A stretch of 64,000 nucleotides of DNA, taken from Acidobacteriota bacterium (lineage in GTDB: Bacteria; Actinomycetota; Actinomycetes; Actinomycetales; Microbacteriaceae). The first letter of the stretch is position 1; the number at the start of each line of letters is the position of its first letter. Made by a program: the position numbers and the translations under genes. Location of the stretch: contig JABBOB010000004.1 of the NCBI GenBank assembly GCA_019352055.1, positions 36,212 to 100,211 of the forward strand. Direction: 5' to 3'. The notes below the pieces were generated by a model. The model was given only the letters and a program-made list of their open reading frames with translations. It had not been told where the DNA came from and did not search any database. Below, one piece after another: positions 1 to 4,106 of this stretch.

Positions 1-375
1 GACGACGAACCCTTCGAGGGCGGGCTCCGCCGAGTCCGCCCCGGGCACGGTCATGAAGGTCCGCTCGCCGTCGGGCTCGATGGCGGTGAGCACGAACCCG
101 GTGTCGCCATCCCGCACGGCGGGCAGCGGGAAGGGCACGTCGAGAGCGGACAGCGCCGACCGCACCAGGTCCCCGAGAGGACCGGTGCCGATCCGGCCCG
201 CGAAGACCGAGTCCACACCGGCGGCACACGCGGCGACGAGGGCGCGGTACCCGCCGCCGCCGACAGTGAGACGGCCACCGGACGCGAGCACGTCGCCACC
301 CCGGACCGGGAGCGCGGGCACCGTTGCCACCACGTCGACGAGCGCGTTGCCCGTGCTGATCAGCCGGCCGGTCAT
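1..375 (-). CDS. PfkB/ribokinase-family sugar kinase, N-terminal part (runs off left edge)
   Basis: Reverse frame from ATG at 375: MTGRLISTGNALVDVVATVPALPVRGGDVLASGGRLTVGGGGYRALVAACAAGVDSVFAGRIGTGPLG..., PfkB-like N-terminus. Missing from ORF track because there is no stop in the window. ATGA overlap with next gene. Confidence 0.8.
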   Translation of the reverse strand, partial: MTGRLISTGNALVDVVATVPALPVRGGDVLASGGRLTVGGGGYRALVAACAAGVDSVFAGRIGTGPLGDLVRSALSALDVPFPLPAVRDGDTGFVLTAIEPDGERTFMTVPGADSAEPALEGFVV

Positions 376-1358
376 CGGAGTGCCAGGAGCGCGTCGACGC
401 GCTCCTCGAGATGGAGGTCGTTGACCGCCGTGACGATGGCGACCGCCTCGGCGGGGAAGCCGGCGACGCCGTGGACCGCCCCCGCCATCGCCCCGGTCAT
501 CGCGGCGATCGTGTCGGTGTCGCCGCCCAGCGACGCTGCGGCGCAGCACGCCGCCCACGGATCGTCGGGATGCAGGAGGAGCATCGCGAACGCGGCCGGC
601 ACCGATTCCTGCGTCGCGAGGCTCGTGCCGATGAGGGACACCACGCGGTCGGTGGCGACGGCCGTGCCGTGCAGGCCGGCGAGCTCGGTGCTCCAGGTGA
701 TCCTCGCGGCGACGTCCGCCCCGGCGACCCATCGACCTCGCTGGACGCCTGCACGGGCCGCGGCGATGCCGAGGGCGACCGCGACCGCGACCGGATGACC
801 CTCCACCCCGGCGCTGACGACCGCGGCGACCGCGGCCGCGCCGGAGATCGCGACCGAGGTGTGGTGGCTGACGAGGCACGCCTCCTCGACGGCACCGACG
901 AGGTCGTCGAGATCGGCGACGGGGTTGGCGATCCCGACCGGCGCGATGCGCATCGCCGCCCCGTTCGTCGTCCCGTTCGTGCCGGCCAGCTCGGGGGCGG
1001 TGCCGTCCCGGATCGCCTGGATCGCGGCGCGCGTAGAGGGGCCGAGCAGATCGAGCGACCCGCGAGCCAGCGCGTCCTGCTCCCACCGGTCGAGGTCGCC
1101 CGCAAGTCGTCGCGGATCGATGCGGCCGCCGCCGGCGATGAGCGCGTCCGCCAGCAGCAGCGCCTGCTCGGTGTCGTCGGTCACGTGGCCCGCCGGCAGA
1201 CCGTGGGCCAGCGGGTGGTCCGGCGCAGCCGCGCGGAAGCCGGTGACCCCGCCCGCGGCGAGCACCGTTTCGCGCGGGAGGGTCTGGGTCGGCATGCCGA
1301 GGGCGTCGCCGATCGCCAGACCGGTCAGGGCGCCGAGCGCCCGATCCCTGCGGCTCAT
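372..1358 (-). CDS. ADP-ribosylglycohydrolase (ARH/DraG) family protein
   Basis: MSRRDRALGALTGLAIGDALGMPTQ...TDDTEQALLLADALI...SLGGDTDTIAAMTGAMAGA; metal-binding DDT and GGDTD motifs. Confidence 0.9.
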   Translation of the reverse strand: MSRRDRALGALTGLAIGDALGMPTQTLPRETVLAAGGVTGFRAAAPDHPLAHGLPAGHVTDDTEQALLLADALIAGGGRIDPRRLAGDLDRWEQDALARGSLDLLGPSTRAAIQAIRDGTAPELAGTNGTTNGAAMRIAPVGIANPVADLDDLVGAVEEACLVSHHTSVAISGAAAVAAVVSAGVEGHPVAVAVALGIAAARAGVQRGRWVAGADVAARITWSTELAGLHGTAVATDRVVSLIGTSLATQESVPAAFAMLLLHPDDPWAACCAAASLGGDTDTIAAMTGAMAGAVHGVAGFPAEAVAIVTAVNDLHLEERVDALLALR

Positions 1359-1906
1359 GCCCCCATCATGGCGAGCACCGCGTCCACGCTGCTGATCGTG
1401 ATGAGCGGCCCGTACAGCGCCATCGCGTCCAGCGCCCGGCGGTGGTCCGCGTCCGTCAGTCCGGCGCACGCGTCCTCCGGCACCACGACGAATCGGCCCG
1501 CGTCGGCGGCGGCCAGCGCGGTCGACAGCACGCAGCAGTCGGTCGAGACGCCGGTGAGCACGAGGCGCTCGCTGCCGGCCGTGGCCGCGGCGAGCTCGGG
1601 ACCCCACTTGCCGAACGTCGGTGCGCTCACGACCGGAGCGTCCCCGACGGCGAGCTCCGCGGTGAGGTCCCAGAGCGGATCGCCCTCCGGGCGCAGCTGG
1701 CCGGGCCATTCCCGGTAGTAGGGGATCCACGCGCCGACCGGCTCCGCCGGTGCGACGAACCGGGTGAAGACGGTGCGCTCCGCGAACGCGGGCAGCAGAC
1801 GACGGACGCCCGCCGACGCGGCGGCGTACCCGGGCGTCGCCCAGGCGCTGTCCGCGTCGGCGAACACGCGCTGCATGTCGACGACGACGAGGTGGGTGCC
1901 GGTCAT
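1355..1906 (-). CDS. isochorismatase-family cysteine hydrolase
   Basis: MTGTHLVVVDMQRVF...FGKWGPEL...GVSTDCCVLSTALAAADAG; Asp/Lys/Cys triad motifs. Confidence 0.9.
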   Translation of the reverse strand: MTGTHLVVVDMQRVFADADSAWATPGYAAASAGVRRLLPAFAERTVFTRFVAPAEPVGAWIPYYREWPGQLRPEGDPLWDLTAELAVGDAPVVSAPTFGKWGPELAAATAGSERLVLTGVSTDCCVLSTALAAADAGRFVVVPEDACAGLTDADHRRALDAMALYGPLITISSVDAVLAMMGA

Positions 1907-3378
1907 TCGGGCCGGGCGAGCGGAAGGGCCTCCTGCCGGCGGACGGCGCCGCGGCCGAGGAGCAGCGTGCCGGCGAACCCGATCACCAGCGCGAGGAGGA
2001 CGCCCAGGTTGGCGTACGCCCAAGCGCCGGTGCGGCCGCCGAGACCGAACGGCCCGAGCAGGTAGCCCTGCCAGTTGAGCCACGCGGGCACTCCGTACGA
2101 GTTGGTGATGAGTCCCCAGCCGACCACCGTGCCGGCGAGGACCAGGAGCACCGCCGACCATCGGACGGATCCGTACCGCCCGCGGGCGTCGTACAGCTCC
2201 GCGCTCGCGTAGTCGCGGCGCCGCAGCAGGTAGTCGGCGACGAAGACGCCGCACCAGGCCGCGATCGGGGTGCCGAGGGTGACGAGGAAGGCCTGGAACG
2301 GGCTCGAGAAGTCCGGGGCGACGAAGGCCACGTAGATCGCGCCCGCGATCATCACGACGCCGTCGACGCCGGCCGCCACCGGCCGGGGGATCCGGATCCC
2401 GGCGGTCAGCAGCGCGAGGCCGGAGGAGTAGATGTCGAGCACCGCGCCGCCCACGAGGCCGAGGATCGCGACGAGTGCGAACGGCACCAGGAACCAGACG
2501 GGGAGGATCGACGTCAGCGCGCCGATCGGGTCGCTCGCGACGGCGTCGGACAGCGTCTTCGACGAGCCGGCCAGCAGCAGGCCGACCACGACGAGGACGA
2601 CCGGAGCCAGTGCGCCGCCGAACGTCGTCCATCCGAAGACACCGCGGCTGCGCGCGGTCCTCGGCAGGTAGCGCGAGTAGTCCGCGGCGGCGTTGACCCA
2701 GCCGAGGCCGAAGCCGGTCATCACGAAGACGAGTGCGCCGATGACGGCCTGCGGAGATCCCGCCGCGAGGTGCGCGACGGCGTCGAACCGGATGTGCGGC
2801 GCGGCCAGGACGACGTACACGACGGTCAGGACCGCGGTCACGACGGTGATCCACTGCTGCAGGCGCATGATCACCGTGAAGCCGGCCACGCCGGCACCGA
2901 CGATCAGCACGGCCACGACGACGAGGGCGACGATCTTCGTGACCGCGCCGCCGTTCCAGCCGAGCTCGCGGAACACGGTCGAGGTCGCGAGCACCGCCAG
3001 GGCGGCCAGCACCGTCTCCCAGCCCACGGTGAGGATCCAGGAGAGGACGGCGGGGAGGCGGTTGCCGTCGACGCCGAACGCCGCCCGGGACAGCACCATC
3101 GTCGGTGCCGAGCCCCGCTTGCCCGCCAGGGCGACGACGCCGCAGAGCGCGAACGAGGCCACGATCCCGACGACCGCGACGATGGTCGCCTGGAGGAACG
3201 AGATGCCGTCGCCGAGGATGAACGCGCCGTAGCTCAGTGCGAGGACCGAGACGTTGGCGGCGAACCAGGGCCAGAAGAGATCGCGGGGGCGTCCCCTGCG
3301 ATCCGCTTCCGCGATGGTGTCGAGGCCGACGACCTCGATGCCCCCTGCCGGCGCGGCCGGTTCGGTGCTGACGGTCAT
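1903..3378 (-). CDS. NCS1-family nucleobase:cation symporter (cytosine/purine permease)
   Basis: MTVSTEPAAPAGGIEVVGLDTIAEADRRGRPRDLFWPWFAANVSVLALSYGAFI..., multiple TM segments, NCS1 signature. Confidence 0.9.
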   Translation of the reverse strand: MTVSTEPAAPAGGIEVVGLDTIAEADRRGRPRDLFWPWFAANVSVLALSYGAFILGDGISFLQATIVAVVGIVASFALCGVVALAGKRGSAPTMVLSRAAFGVDGNRLPAVLSWILTVGWETVLAALAVLATSTVFRELGWNGGAVTKIVALVVVAVLIVGAGVAGFTVIMRLQQWITVVTAVLTVVYVVLAAPHIRFDAVAHLAAGSPQAVIGALVFVMTGFGLGWVNAAADYSRYLPRTARSRGVFGWTTFGGALAPVVLVVVGLLLAGSSKTLSDAVASDPIGALTSILPVWFLVPFALVAILGLVGGAVLDIYSSGLALLTAGIRIPRPVAAGVDGVVMIAGAIYVAFVAPDFSSPFQAFLVTLGTPIAAWCGVFVADYLLRRRDYASAELYDARGRYGSVRWSAVLLVLAGTVVGWGLITNSYGVPAWLNWQGYLLGPFGLGGRTGAWAYANLGVLLALVIGFAGTLLLGRGAVRRQEALPLARPE

Positions 3379-4031
3379 GTGAGCAGTTCCTCTCGAGCGG
3401 TGGATCGGTAGAGCGCGGGCGGCCGGTGGCGCACGCCGGCCTGGTGGGCGCCCGTGGGCGTCACCGTGCCGGTCGCCTCGGTACGGCGCCGGAAGTTGGC
3501 GGGGTCGAGCCGGCGACCCAGGATCGCCTCGTGCACCTCGCGCAACTGGCCGAGGGTGAACTCCTCGGGCAGCAGGGCGTGGGACAGGTGGGTGTACTCG
3601 AGCTTGCTCTTCAGGCGCTTCACCGCCCAGCCGACGATCTCGTCGTGGTCGAACGCGAGCGGGGGGAGTGCCTCCGCCGGGAACCAGGCGACGTGCGGGT
3701 CGGCACGGGTCAGTGCCGCCTCCTCCGTGCGCACGAGCGCCCAGTACACGACGGACACGACCCGCTCGGCTCCGCCGCGTTCGACCGCCCCGAACGTGTA
3801 GAGCTGCTCGAGGTGGGCCGGATCCAGCCCCGTCGTGGTCGCGAGGCCCCGCCGCGCGGCATCCCGCAGCGACTCGGCGGGGCGGAGCGGCCCGCCCGGG
3901 AGCGCCCAGCGCCCGAGGTGCGGTTCGCGCACCCGCTGCACGAGCGGCAGGTGGAGCGCCGGCTGACCGTCGTGGTCCCGGAGGCCGAAGATCACCGTCG
4001 AGACCGCGACGGTGACGGGCTGCTCGGCCAT
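3375..4031 (-). CDS. NrtR-like transcriptional regulator (degenerate Nudix domain + C-terminal winged helix)
   Basis: Nudix box degenerate: GGPLRPAESLRDAARRGLATTTGL (RE and EE lost); C-terminus FTLGQLREVHEAILGRRLDPANFRRR typical of NrtR wHTH. Confidence 0.82.
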   Translation of the reverse strand: MAEQPVTVAVSTVIFGLRDHDGQPALHLPLVQRVREPHLGRWALPGGPLRPAESLRDAARRGLATTTGLDPAHLEQLYTFGAVERGGAERVVSVVYWALVRTEEAALTRADPHVAWFPAEALPPLAFDHDEIVGWAVKRLKSKLEYTHLSHALLPEEFTLGQLREVHEAILGRRLDPANFRRRTEATGTVTPTGAHQAGVRHRPPALYRSTAREELLT

Positions 4032-4040
4032 GGCCCCTCC

Positions 4041-4106
4041 GGTAAAGGTCGATCGGACACGAACTGTGCCGGGAGCGTAGCACTTCGGGTGCCGATGACC
4101 ATTACC
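4041..4106. promoter_or_regulatory. interrupted inverted repeat around the promoter of the NrtR-like operon (candidate operator)
   Basis: Arms GGTAAAGGTCGATCGG (4041-4056) and CCGATGACCATTACC (4092-4106); minus-strand TGGTCA-N16-TACGCT promoter lies in and between them. Confidence 0.5.

Follow-up and report, generated by a model that had tools for sequence, protein, structure and literature searches.

Organization of the operon

In our study, a stretch of 64,000 nucleotides of the contig JABBOB010000004.1 (assembly GCA_019352055.1), called here the window, was analyzed for a five-gene operon that lies at its beginning and is headed by the gene of an NrtR-like regulator. The host is an Amnibacterium-like soil bacterium, and the genus of the window is Amnibacterium. 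All five genes were found on the minus strand. The NrtR-like regulator (3375..4031) matched the Pfam families NrtR_WHD (PF21906, 1.3e-19) and NUDIX (PF00293, 4.5e-13), followed by the presence of an NCS1 permease of type A (1903..3378; Transp_cyt_pur, 3.3e-40), which is predicted to import a niacin vitamer or an N-riboside. The third gene encodes an isochorismatase-like cysteine hydrolase, CysH (1355..1906; Isochorismatase, 6.4e-28), a predicted metal-free amidohydrolase related to nicotinamidase and biuret hydrolase, and the fourth encodes a protein of the ADP-ribosylglycohydrolase family, ARH (372..1358; ADP_ribosyl_GH, PF03747, 3.4e-61), a predicted N-glycoside hydrolase acting on a riboside. 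The last is represented by the N-terminal part of a PfkB kinase (1..375; PfkB), which is predicted to phosphorylate ribose or a riboside. All five Pfam assignments exceeded the respective cut-offs.

The four junctions contained an ATGA overlap (3375-3378, 1903-1906, 1355-1358, and 372-375, respectively). This five-gene, ATGA-overlapped operon had been described in an earlier sequence-only reading, and the genes, families, and junctions were confirmed when they were read again. In the sister species G001 the ATGA was present at 4/4 junctions and in G006 the junctions were ATGA, GTGA, GTGA, and ATGA; the gene overlaps are thus conserved. The list of five genes given in that reading was right as to the families and needs a correction for PfkB, which is cut by the start of the window and by an assembly gap of 10 N (L002 6203-6212). 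The pfkB gene runs past position 1, outside the window, and is interrupted by this gap at the window start; the C-terminal half, with the DTNGAGD motif, is present in the genome beyond the gap. The frame break at the window edge is therefore an assembly artefact and not a mutation. PfkB is the last gene of the operon and is convergent with the next gene, and the operon as a whole is divergent from guaA (~4154).

NrtR and its operators

The NrtR of the window consists of a Nudix-like ligand domain fused to an NrtR winged helix and is predicted to repress its own operon. The Nudix box was found to be degenerate (RGLATTTGL), just as the sequence-only reading had claimed, and it is degenerate in the nadA-linked relatives as well. 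The closest relatives in the PDB were BtAraR (2.6e-34), followed by SoNrtR (5e-26). In a panel of 149 related genomes, NrtR was found in 82/149 and NadA in 93/149, and the NrtR orthologs were single-copy. Outside Amnibacterium, NrtR adjoins nadA in 69 of the 72 genomes that contain both genes. The operon of one relative, which was read completely, contained NrtR-NadA-NadB-NadC-aminotransferase, and Pfam confirmed NadA, a NadB-like FAD_binding_2 protein, and NadC in the nadA-linked operon. From these sequence comparisons it is well supported that the NrtR of the window is the family-wide ortholog of the nadA-linked NAD regulator. Its pocket residues agree with those of the nadA-linked orthologs in the alignment.

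The Arg98 of SoNrtR is a contact of ADP-ribose (PMC4666351), and this position contained Ala in the NrtR of the window. The substitution was considered as a sign of pentose instead of ADP-ribose sensing, and this reading was dropped because the aligned nadA-linked NrtRs of Microbacteriaceae are likewise without Arg. Previous studies reported that MsNrtR of Mycobacterium smegmatis represses nadABC and is released by ADP-ribose (PMC6800001), and that members of the NrtR family can also switch to sugars (PMC4666351).

The nadA-linked NrtR promoters of the relatives contained a common palindrome, for example TTAGAGTCATCCTGACTCTTAC, mostly in two copies. A position weight matrix (PWM) trained solely on these promoters predicted two NrtR operators between nrtR and guaA. 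Operator 1 (4042..4063, TTCGTGTCCGATCGACCTTTAC on the minus strand) scored 15.4 and matched with zero mismatches in a pattern search of the whole genome; operator 2 (4084..4105, TTCGGGTGCCGATGACCATTAC) is weaker, with a score of 10.8 and one mismatch in the same search. No other site of the 64 kb window reached a PWM score of 8. Markov-random sequence of the same composition (1.08 Mb) contained 0 sites of at least 15 and 4 sites of at least 10. With at most one mismatch, the pattern matched 4 sites across the genome in total, operators 1 and 2 among them, and no convincing NrtR site turned up apart from these two.

Loss of NAD synthesis genes in Amnibacterium and other genomes without NadA

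NadA was absent from 7/7 Amnibacterium genomes. QRPTase (NadC) was above the family cut-off in 0/7, and two sub-threshold matches fell in the open reading frame of NAPRTase. PncB was present in 7/7. Amnibacterium has lost nadA and, judged by the family cut-off, apparently nadC too. NrtR heads NCS1-CysH-ARH-PfkB in 5/7 of these genomes. The conservation of the neighborhood, which the sequence-only reading had proposed to check, was thus found within the genus, and NCS1-CysH-(GntR)-ARH-PfkB recurs across Actinomycetota.

A similar linkage was found in G109, a genome of another family that is also devoid of NadA. It contained NrtR-NCS1-CysH with a near-perfect palindromic operator, GTTATAGTCATAGTGACTATAAC, upstream, and a further strong operator just upstream of pncB. 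Random sites of that strength occur at ~3 per 1.17 Mb, so a chance placement before pncB of G109 is unlikely. In the NCS1 tree the G109 locus was not grouped with the NrtR-linked loci of Amnibacterium; its branch is long and its position unsure. In G117, which is also NadA-less, the arrangement was NrtR-PncA-NAPRTase.

CysH and ARH were enriched in the nadA-less genomes when counted per genome (p = 0.03 and 0.006, respectively). At the genus level, for which the counts were compiled by hand from tables, the enrichment was not significant (p = 0.36 and 0.16, respectively); because of this it was not used as proof.

The enzymes and the permease

The catalytic triad of CysH (D10, K100, and C125) was invariant in 29 aligned sequences. 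In the region of the nicotinamidase metal site, no D-x-H motif was found, and an invariant R49 was present there instead, in addition to several invariant aromatic residues. The metal of nicotinamidases coordinates the pyridine nitrogen; if this nitrogen were blocked by ribose, the metal may be dispensable in CysH. The possibility of a standard nicotinamidase was rejected on the grounds that CysH has no such metal site and that the genome encodes a canonical PncA. The predicted structure of CysH had a pLDDT of 96. A Foldseek search with this model matched biuret hydrolase, maleamate amidase, N-carbamoylsarcosine amidase, and nicotinamidase at similar E-values, so the fold does not decide the substrate.

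In ARH, the metal motifs TDDT and GGDTDT belonged to the residues with a conservation of 97% or more across 81 homologs. The protein scored below the equivalog cut-offs of DraG (74.7 vs 337 bits) and Tri1 (63.1 vs 490 bits). ARH has the motifs of a two-metal enzyme of the DraG/ARH fold and is a predicted N-glycoside hydrolase. The nearest solved structures to a sister protein of PfkB were ribokinases. The partial PfkB protein, which alone was scored, fell below the ribokinase equivalog cut-offs. At Asn44 of the sugar site (GG-x-x-x-N), most of 75 homologs contained Asn and all Amnibacterium homologs examined contained Arg, which hints at a changed substrate in the genus. The NCS1 permease matched TIGR00800 under the cut-off. 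Fungal NCS1 carriers include transporters of nicotinamide riboside (PMC10788122).

Distribution of related operons

Scanning genomes with ARH, we found 80 loci (50-72% identity), and PfkB was linked to ARH in nearly all of them. Three arrangements were seen. Type A, NCS1-CysH-(GntR)-ARH-PfkB, contained CysH in 23 loci, the window included. Type B, GntR-ARH-NCS1-PfkB, is devoid of CysH and has an NCS1 of 34-40% identity; it was found in 48 loci, for example in Streptomyces, Curtobacterium, and Pseudomonas. Type C, GntR-ARH-PfkB with a PotABCD-like ABC importer, was found in Rhizobium and Mesorhizobium, and in Paracoccus without an annotated adjoining GntR. An importer adjoins ARH-PfkB in most of the loci. 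The NCS1 tree placed the permease of the window in the type A clade of Microbacteriaceae.

The usual regulator of the homologous operons is GntR with a UTRA domain, and among the loci of the ARH scan NrtR was found in Amnibacterium only. The operator was looked for in the GntR-type operons of relatives and was absent. Most of the homologous operons are under GntR/UTRA and carry no operator, so NrtR is not a general component, and the view that it defines the system found no support.

In a sample of 30 loci from across the class, CysH came directly after NCS1 in 25, often with no ARH nearby, so that NCS1-CysH forms a separate unit. The flanks of the stand-alone NCS1-CysH loci were considered as a clue to the substrate and were set aside; they contained an M18 peptidase and unrelated genes, with no consistent hint. 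On a plasmid of Paracoccaceae (L088 2961-12811), a CysH homolog of 42% identity lies beside annotated NtaA-like monooxygenases and nicotinate dehydrogenase subunits, a neighborhood that suggests the breakdown of N-heterocycles.

Other arrangements of the ARH-PfkB pair were also observed. In Planosporangium (L017 and L022), a nucleoside phosphorylase superfamily gene adjoins NCS1 and is divergent from ARH-PfkB, with no match to CysH; this is consistent with a nucleoside substrate. In Acidimicrobiaceae (L052, L070, and L080), ARH-PfkB is followed by a gene of the phosphofructokinase family (PF00365), an NCS1 in divergent orientation, and another PfkB. In G061 (L152 2791-13793), the genes that come after NrtR-nadA-nadB-nadC-aminotransferase on the same strand encode an MFS transporter, a carboxymuconolactone-decarboxylase-like protein, ARH, and PfkB; here too, the ARH-PfkB pair lies near genes of NAD synthesis.

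Interpretation of the operon

A link of the operon to NAD metabolism is well supported by the comparison of genomes, namely the orthology of NrtR, the shared operators, the gene loss in the genus, and the conserved linkage. The sequence-only reading had drawn this link from the name of NrtR, and it gained ground from the nadA-linked orthology, the operator, the loss of nadA, and the NrtR-NCS1-CysH locus of G109 with its pncB operator. We give an even chance to the reading that the operon is an NrtR-controlled salvage system for niacin vitamers, which replaced de novo NAD synthesis in its regulatory role in a genus without nadA. As Amnibacterium has lost the de novo route, a vitamin B3 nucleoside is probably taken up and degraded by the operon, and the likely substrate is a nicotinic compound in N-ribosylated form. 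What we infer from the genes is which vitamer is imported, what the three enzymes do and in which order, and to which signal NrtR responds.

In this proposal, the genus would have lost de novo NAD synthesis, and NrtR with its operator would have taken over a pre-existing riboside-salvage operon, which now would supply niacin. As long as NAD is sufficient, NrtR would keep the operon repressed, and a signal such as ADP-ribose would release the repressor. A niacin vitamer may then enter through the NCS1 permease, with N-ribosylated nicotinamide or nicotinate as the most likely one; the metal-free CysH would take off the amide, the ARH-family enzyme would split the N-glycosidic bond, and PfkB would phosphorylate the ribose, or the riboside ahead of cleavage. 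The freed nicotinate could then be converted to NAD via PncB. The scheme of the sequence-only reading, with import of an N-riboside, cleavage, processing of the base, and phosphorylation of the ribose, is plausible by the families of the genes. The most detailed form of the proposal is a new pyridine-nucleoside salvage pathway, in which NCS1 imports nicotinamide riboside, CysH deamidates the ribosylated form, and an ARH that does not act on ADP-ribosyl groups then cleaves nicotinate riboside, with the nicotinate going to PncB and the ribose to PfkB. We consider this form rather unlikely. Deamidation with the ribose still on the ring nitrogen would explain the missing nitrogen-binding metal.

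Several observations weigh against niacin salvage. A canonical PncA nicotinamidase with the metal motif is encoded elsewhere in the genome of the window, and no operator was found at its pncA and pncB in the site search. The homologous operons in nadA-keeping genomes are under GntR/UTRA without the operator. Amnibacterium G004 has retained the operon and lost both NrtR and the operators, and three genomes with NrtR and no NadA (G062, G137, and G143) contained no adjoining salvage gene within the stretches read. The enrichment of CysH and ARH, as given above, was not significant at the genus level. The characterized ARH enzymes act on alpha-linked ADP-ribose, and natural nicotinamide riboside is a beta form.

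Some of these points would fit general scavenging of a modified or ordinary nucleoside for carbon and nitrogen, which is presumably also the role of the GntR-controlled relatives; in Amnibacterium, an orphaned NrtR would have joined the operon by rearrangement and would now control it with no link to niacin. This is a possible explanation that we regard as on balance unlikely. It agrees with the GntR control of most homologous operons and their other importers (NCS1 of type B, the PotABCD-like ABC importer, and YegT in Escherichia coli), with ARH-PfkB lacking CysH in the 48 type B loci, with the non-significant genus-level link to nadA loss, and with a PncA-PncB route that is already present without operators. 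However, the NrtR studied here has kept its DNA specificity and two operators, and G109 shows NrtR-NCS1-CysH once more, together with an operator before pncB; as the linkage occurs twice in nadA-less genomes, a chance link is not expected. It is quite improbable that the transcript combines two functions, with NCS1-CysH taking up and deamidating nicotinamide or another pyridine amide and ARH-PfkB recycling ADP-ribose or ribose from NAD breakdown. NCS1-CysH does occur as a stand-alone pair and is the sole NrtR-linked part in G109, ARH-PfkB occurs without CysH, and repressors of the NrtR family respond to ADP-ribose (PMC6800001), but CysH is devoid of the nicotinamidase metal site, a canonical PncA is encoded in the genome, and the importer beside ARH-PfkB in most loci suggests an imported substrate. 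A role related to ADP-glucose or glycogen, as proposed for yegTUV of E. coli, is very improbable. YegU and YegV are full-length homologs of ARH and PfkB (35% and 30% identical, respectively), and their repressor GgaR was reported to sense ADP-glucose (PMC10819704); however, the transporter and the regulator differ, the NrtR link points to NAD, no glycogen gene was recognized beside the loci examined, and the yegTUV enzymes are themselves uncharacterized.

If niacin salvage is the right reading, the operon would represent a B3 uptake and salvage system of a new kind. Among human gut genomes, only 25% of the predicted B3 auxotrophs had a known B3 transporter that could be detected with confidence (PMC6593275), and the NrtR-controlled pair of NCS1 and hydrolase is therefore a concrete candidate for a part of the missing uptake. 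The widespread and uncharacterized ARH-PfkB pair, including yegUV of E. coli and a cassette of Staphylococcus, gains a testable class of substrates, and Amnibacterium offers a natural experiment in regulatory rewiring after the loss of a biosynthetic pathway.

Comparison with known systems

In the literature searched, no report of NrtR controlling NCS1-CysH-ARH-PfkB was found; the original paper on the NrtR regulon was outside this search and may contain a prior mention. For the function of ARH-PfkB, only yegTUV/GgaR and unstudied annotations of the staphylococcal cassette chromosome (SCC) were found. The SCC cassette ARH-NCS1-ribokinase (SERP2218-2216) contains the same three families by published annotation, and differs in that no cysteine hydrolase or NrtR is described in it (PMC3637587, PMC3321955). 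The yegTUV-yegW (GgaR) system of E. coli shares the homologous pair of ARH and PfkB beside a predicted nucleoside importer, but it has the MFS transporter YegT, a GntR-type regulator, no cysteine hydrolase, and ADP-glucose as the reported effector, whereas the window contains NCS1 and NrtR. CysH shares the fold and the Asp-Lys-Cys triad of the PncA nicotinamidase, but is without the Asp/His metal site and contains an invariant Arg in this region. BtAraR, the nearest solved structure to the NrtR of the window by sequence, senses L-arabinose and controls sugar genes (PMC4666351), whereas the NrtR of the window is orthologous to the nadA-linked NrtRs. The closest system is the NrtR-nadABC regulon of Actinomycetota, for example that of MsNrtR (PMC6800001), which shares the kind of repressor, the self-controlled operon, and the connection to NAD metabolism, and in Microbacteriaceae also the orthologous repressor and the operator. 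In place of the de novo genes, the NrtR of the window is predicted to control a transporter together with three enzymes of putative catabolic or salvage function.

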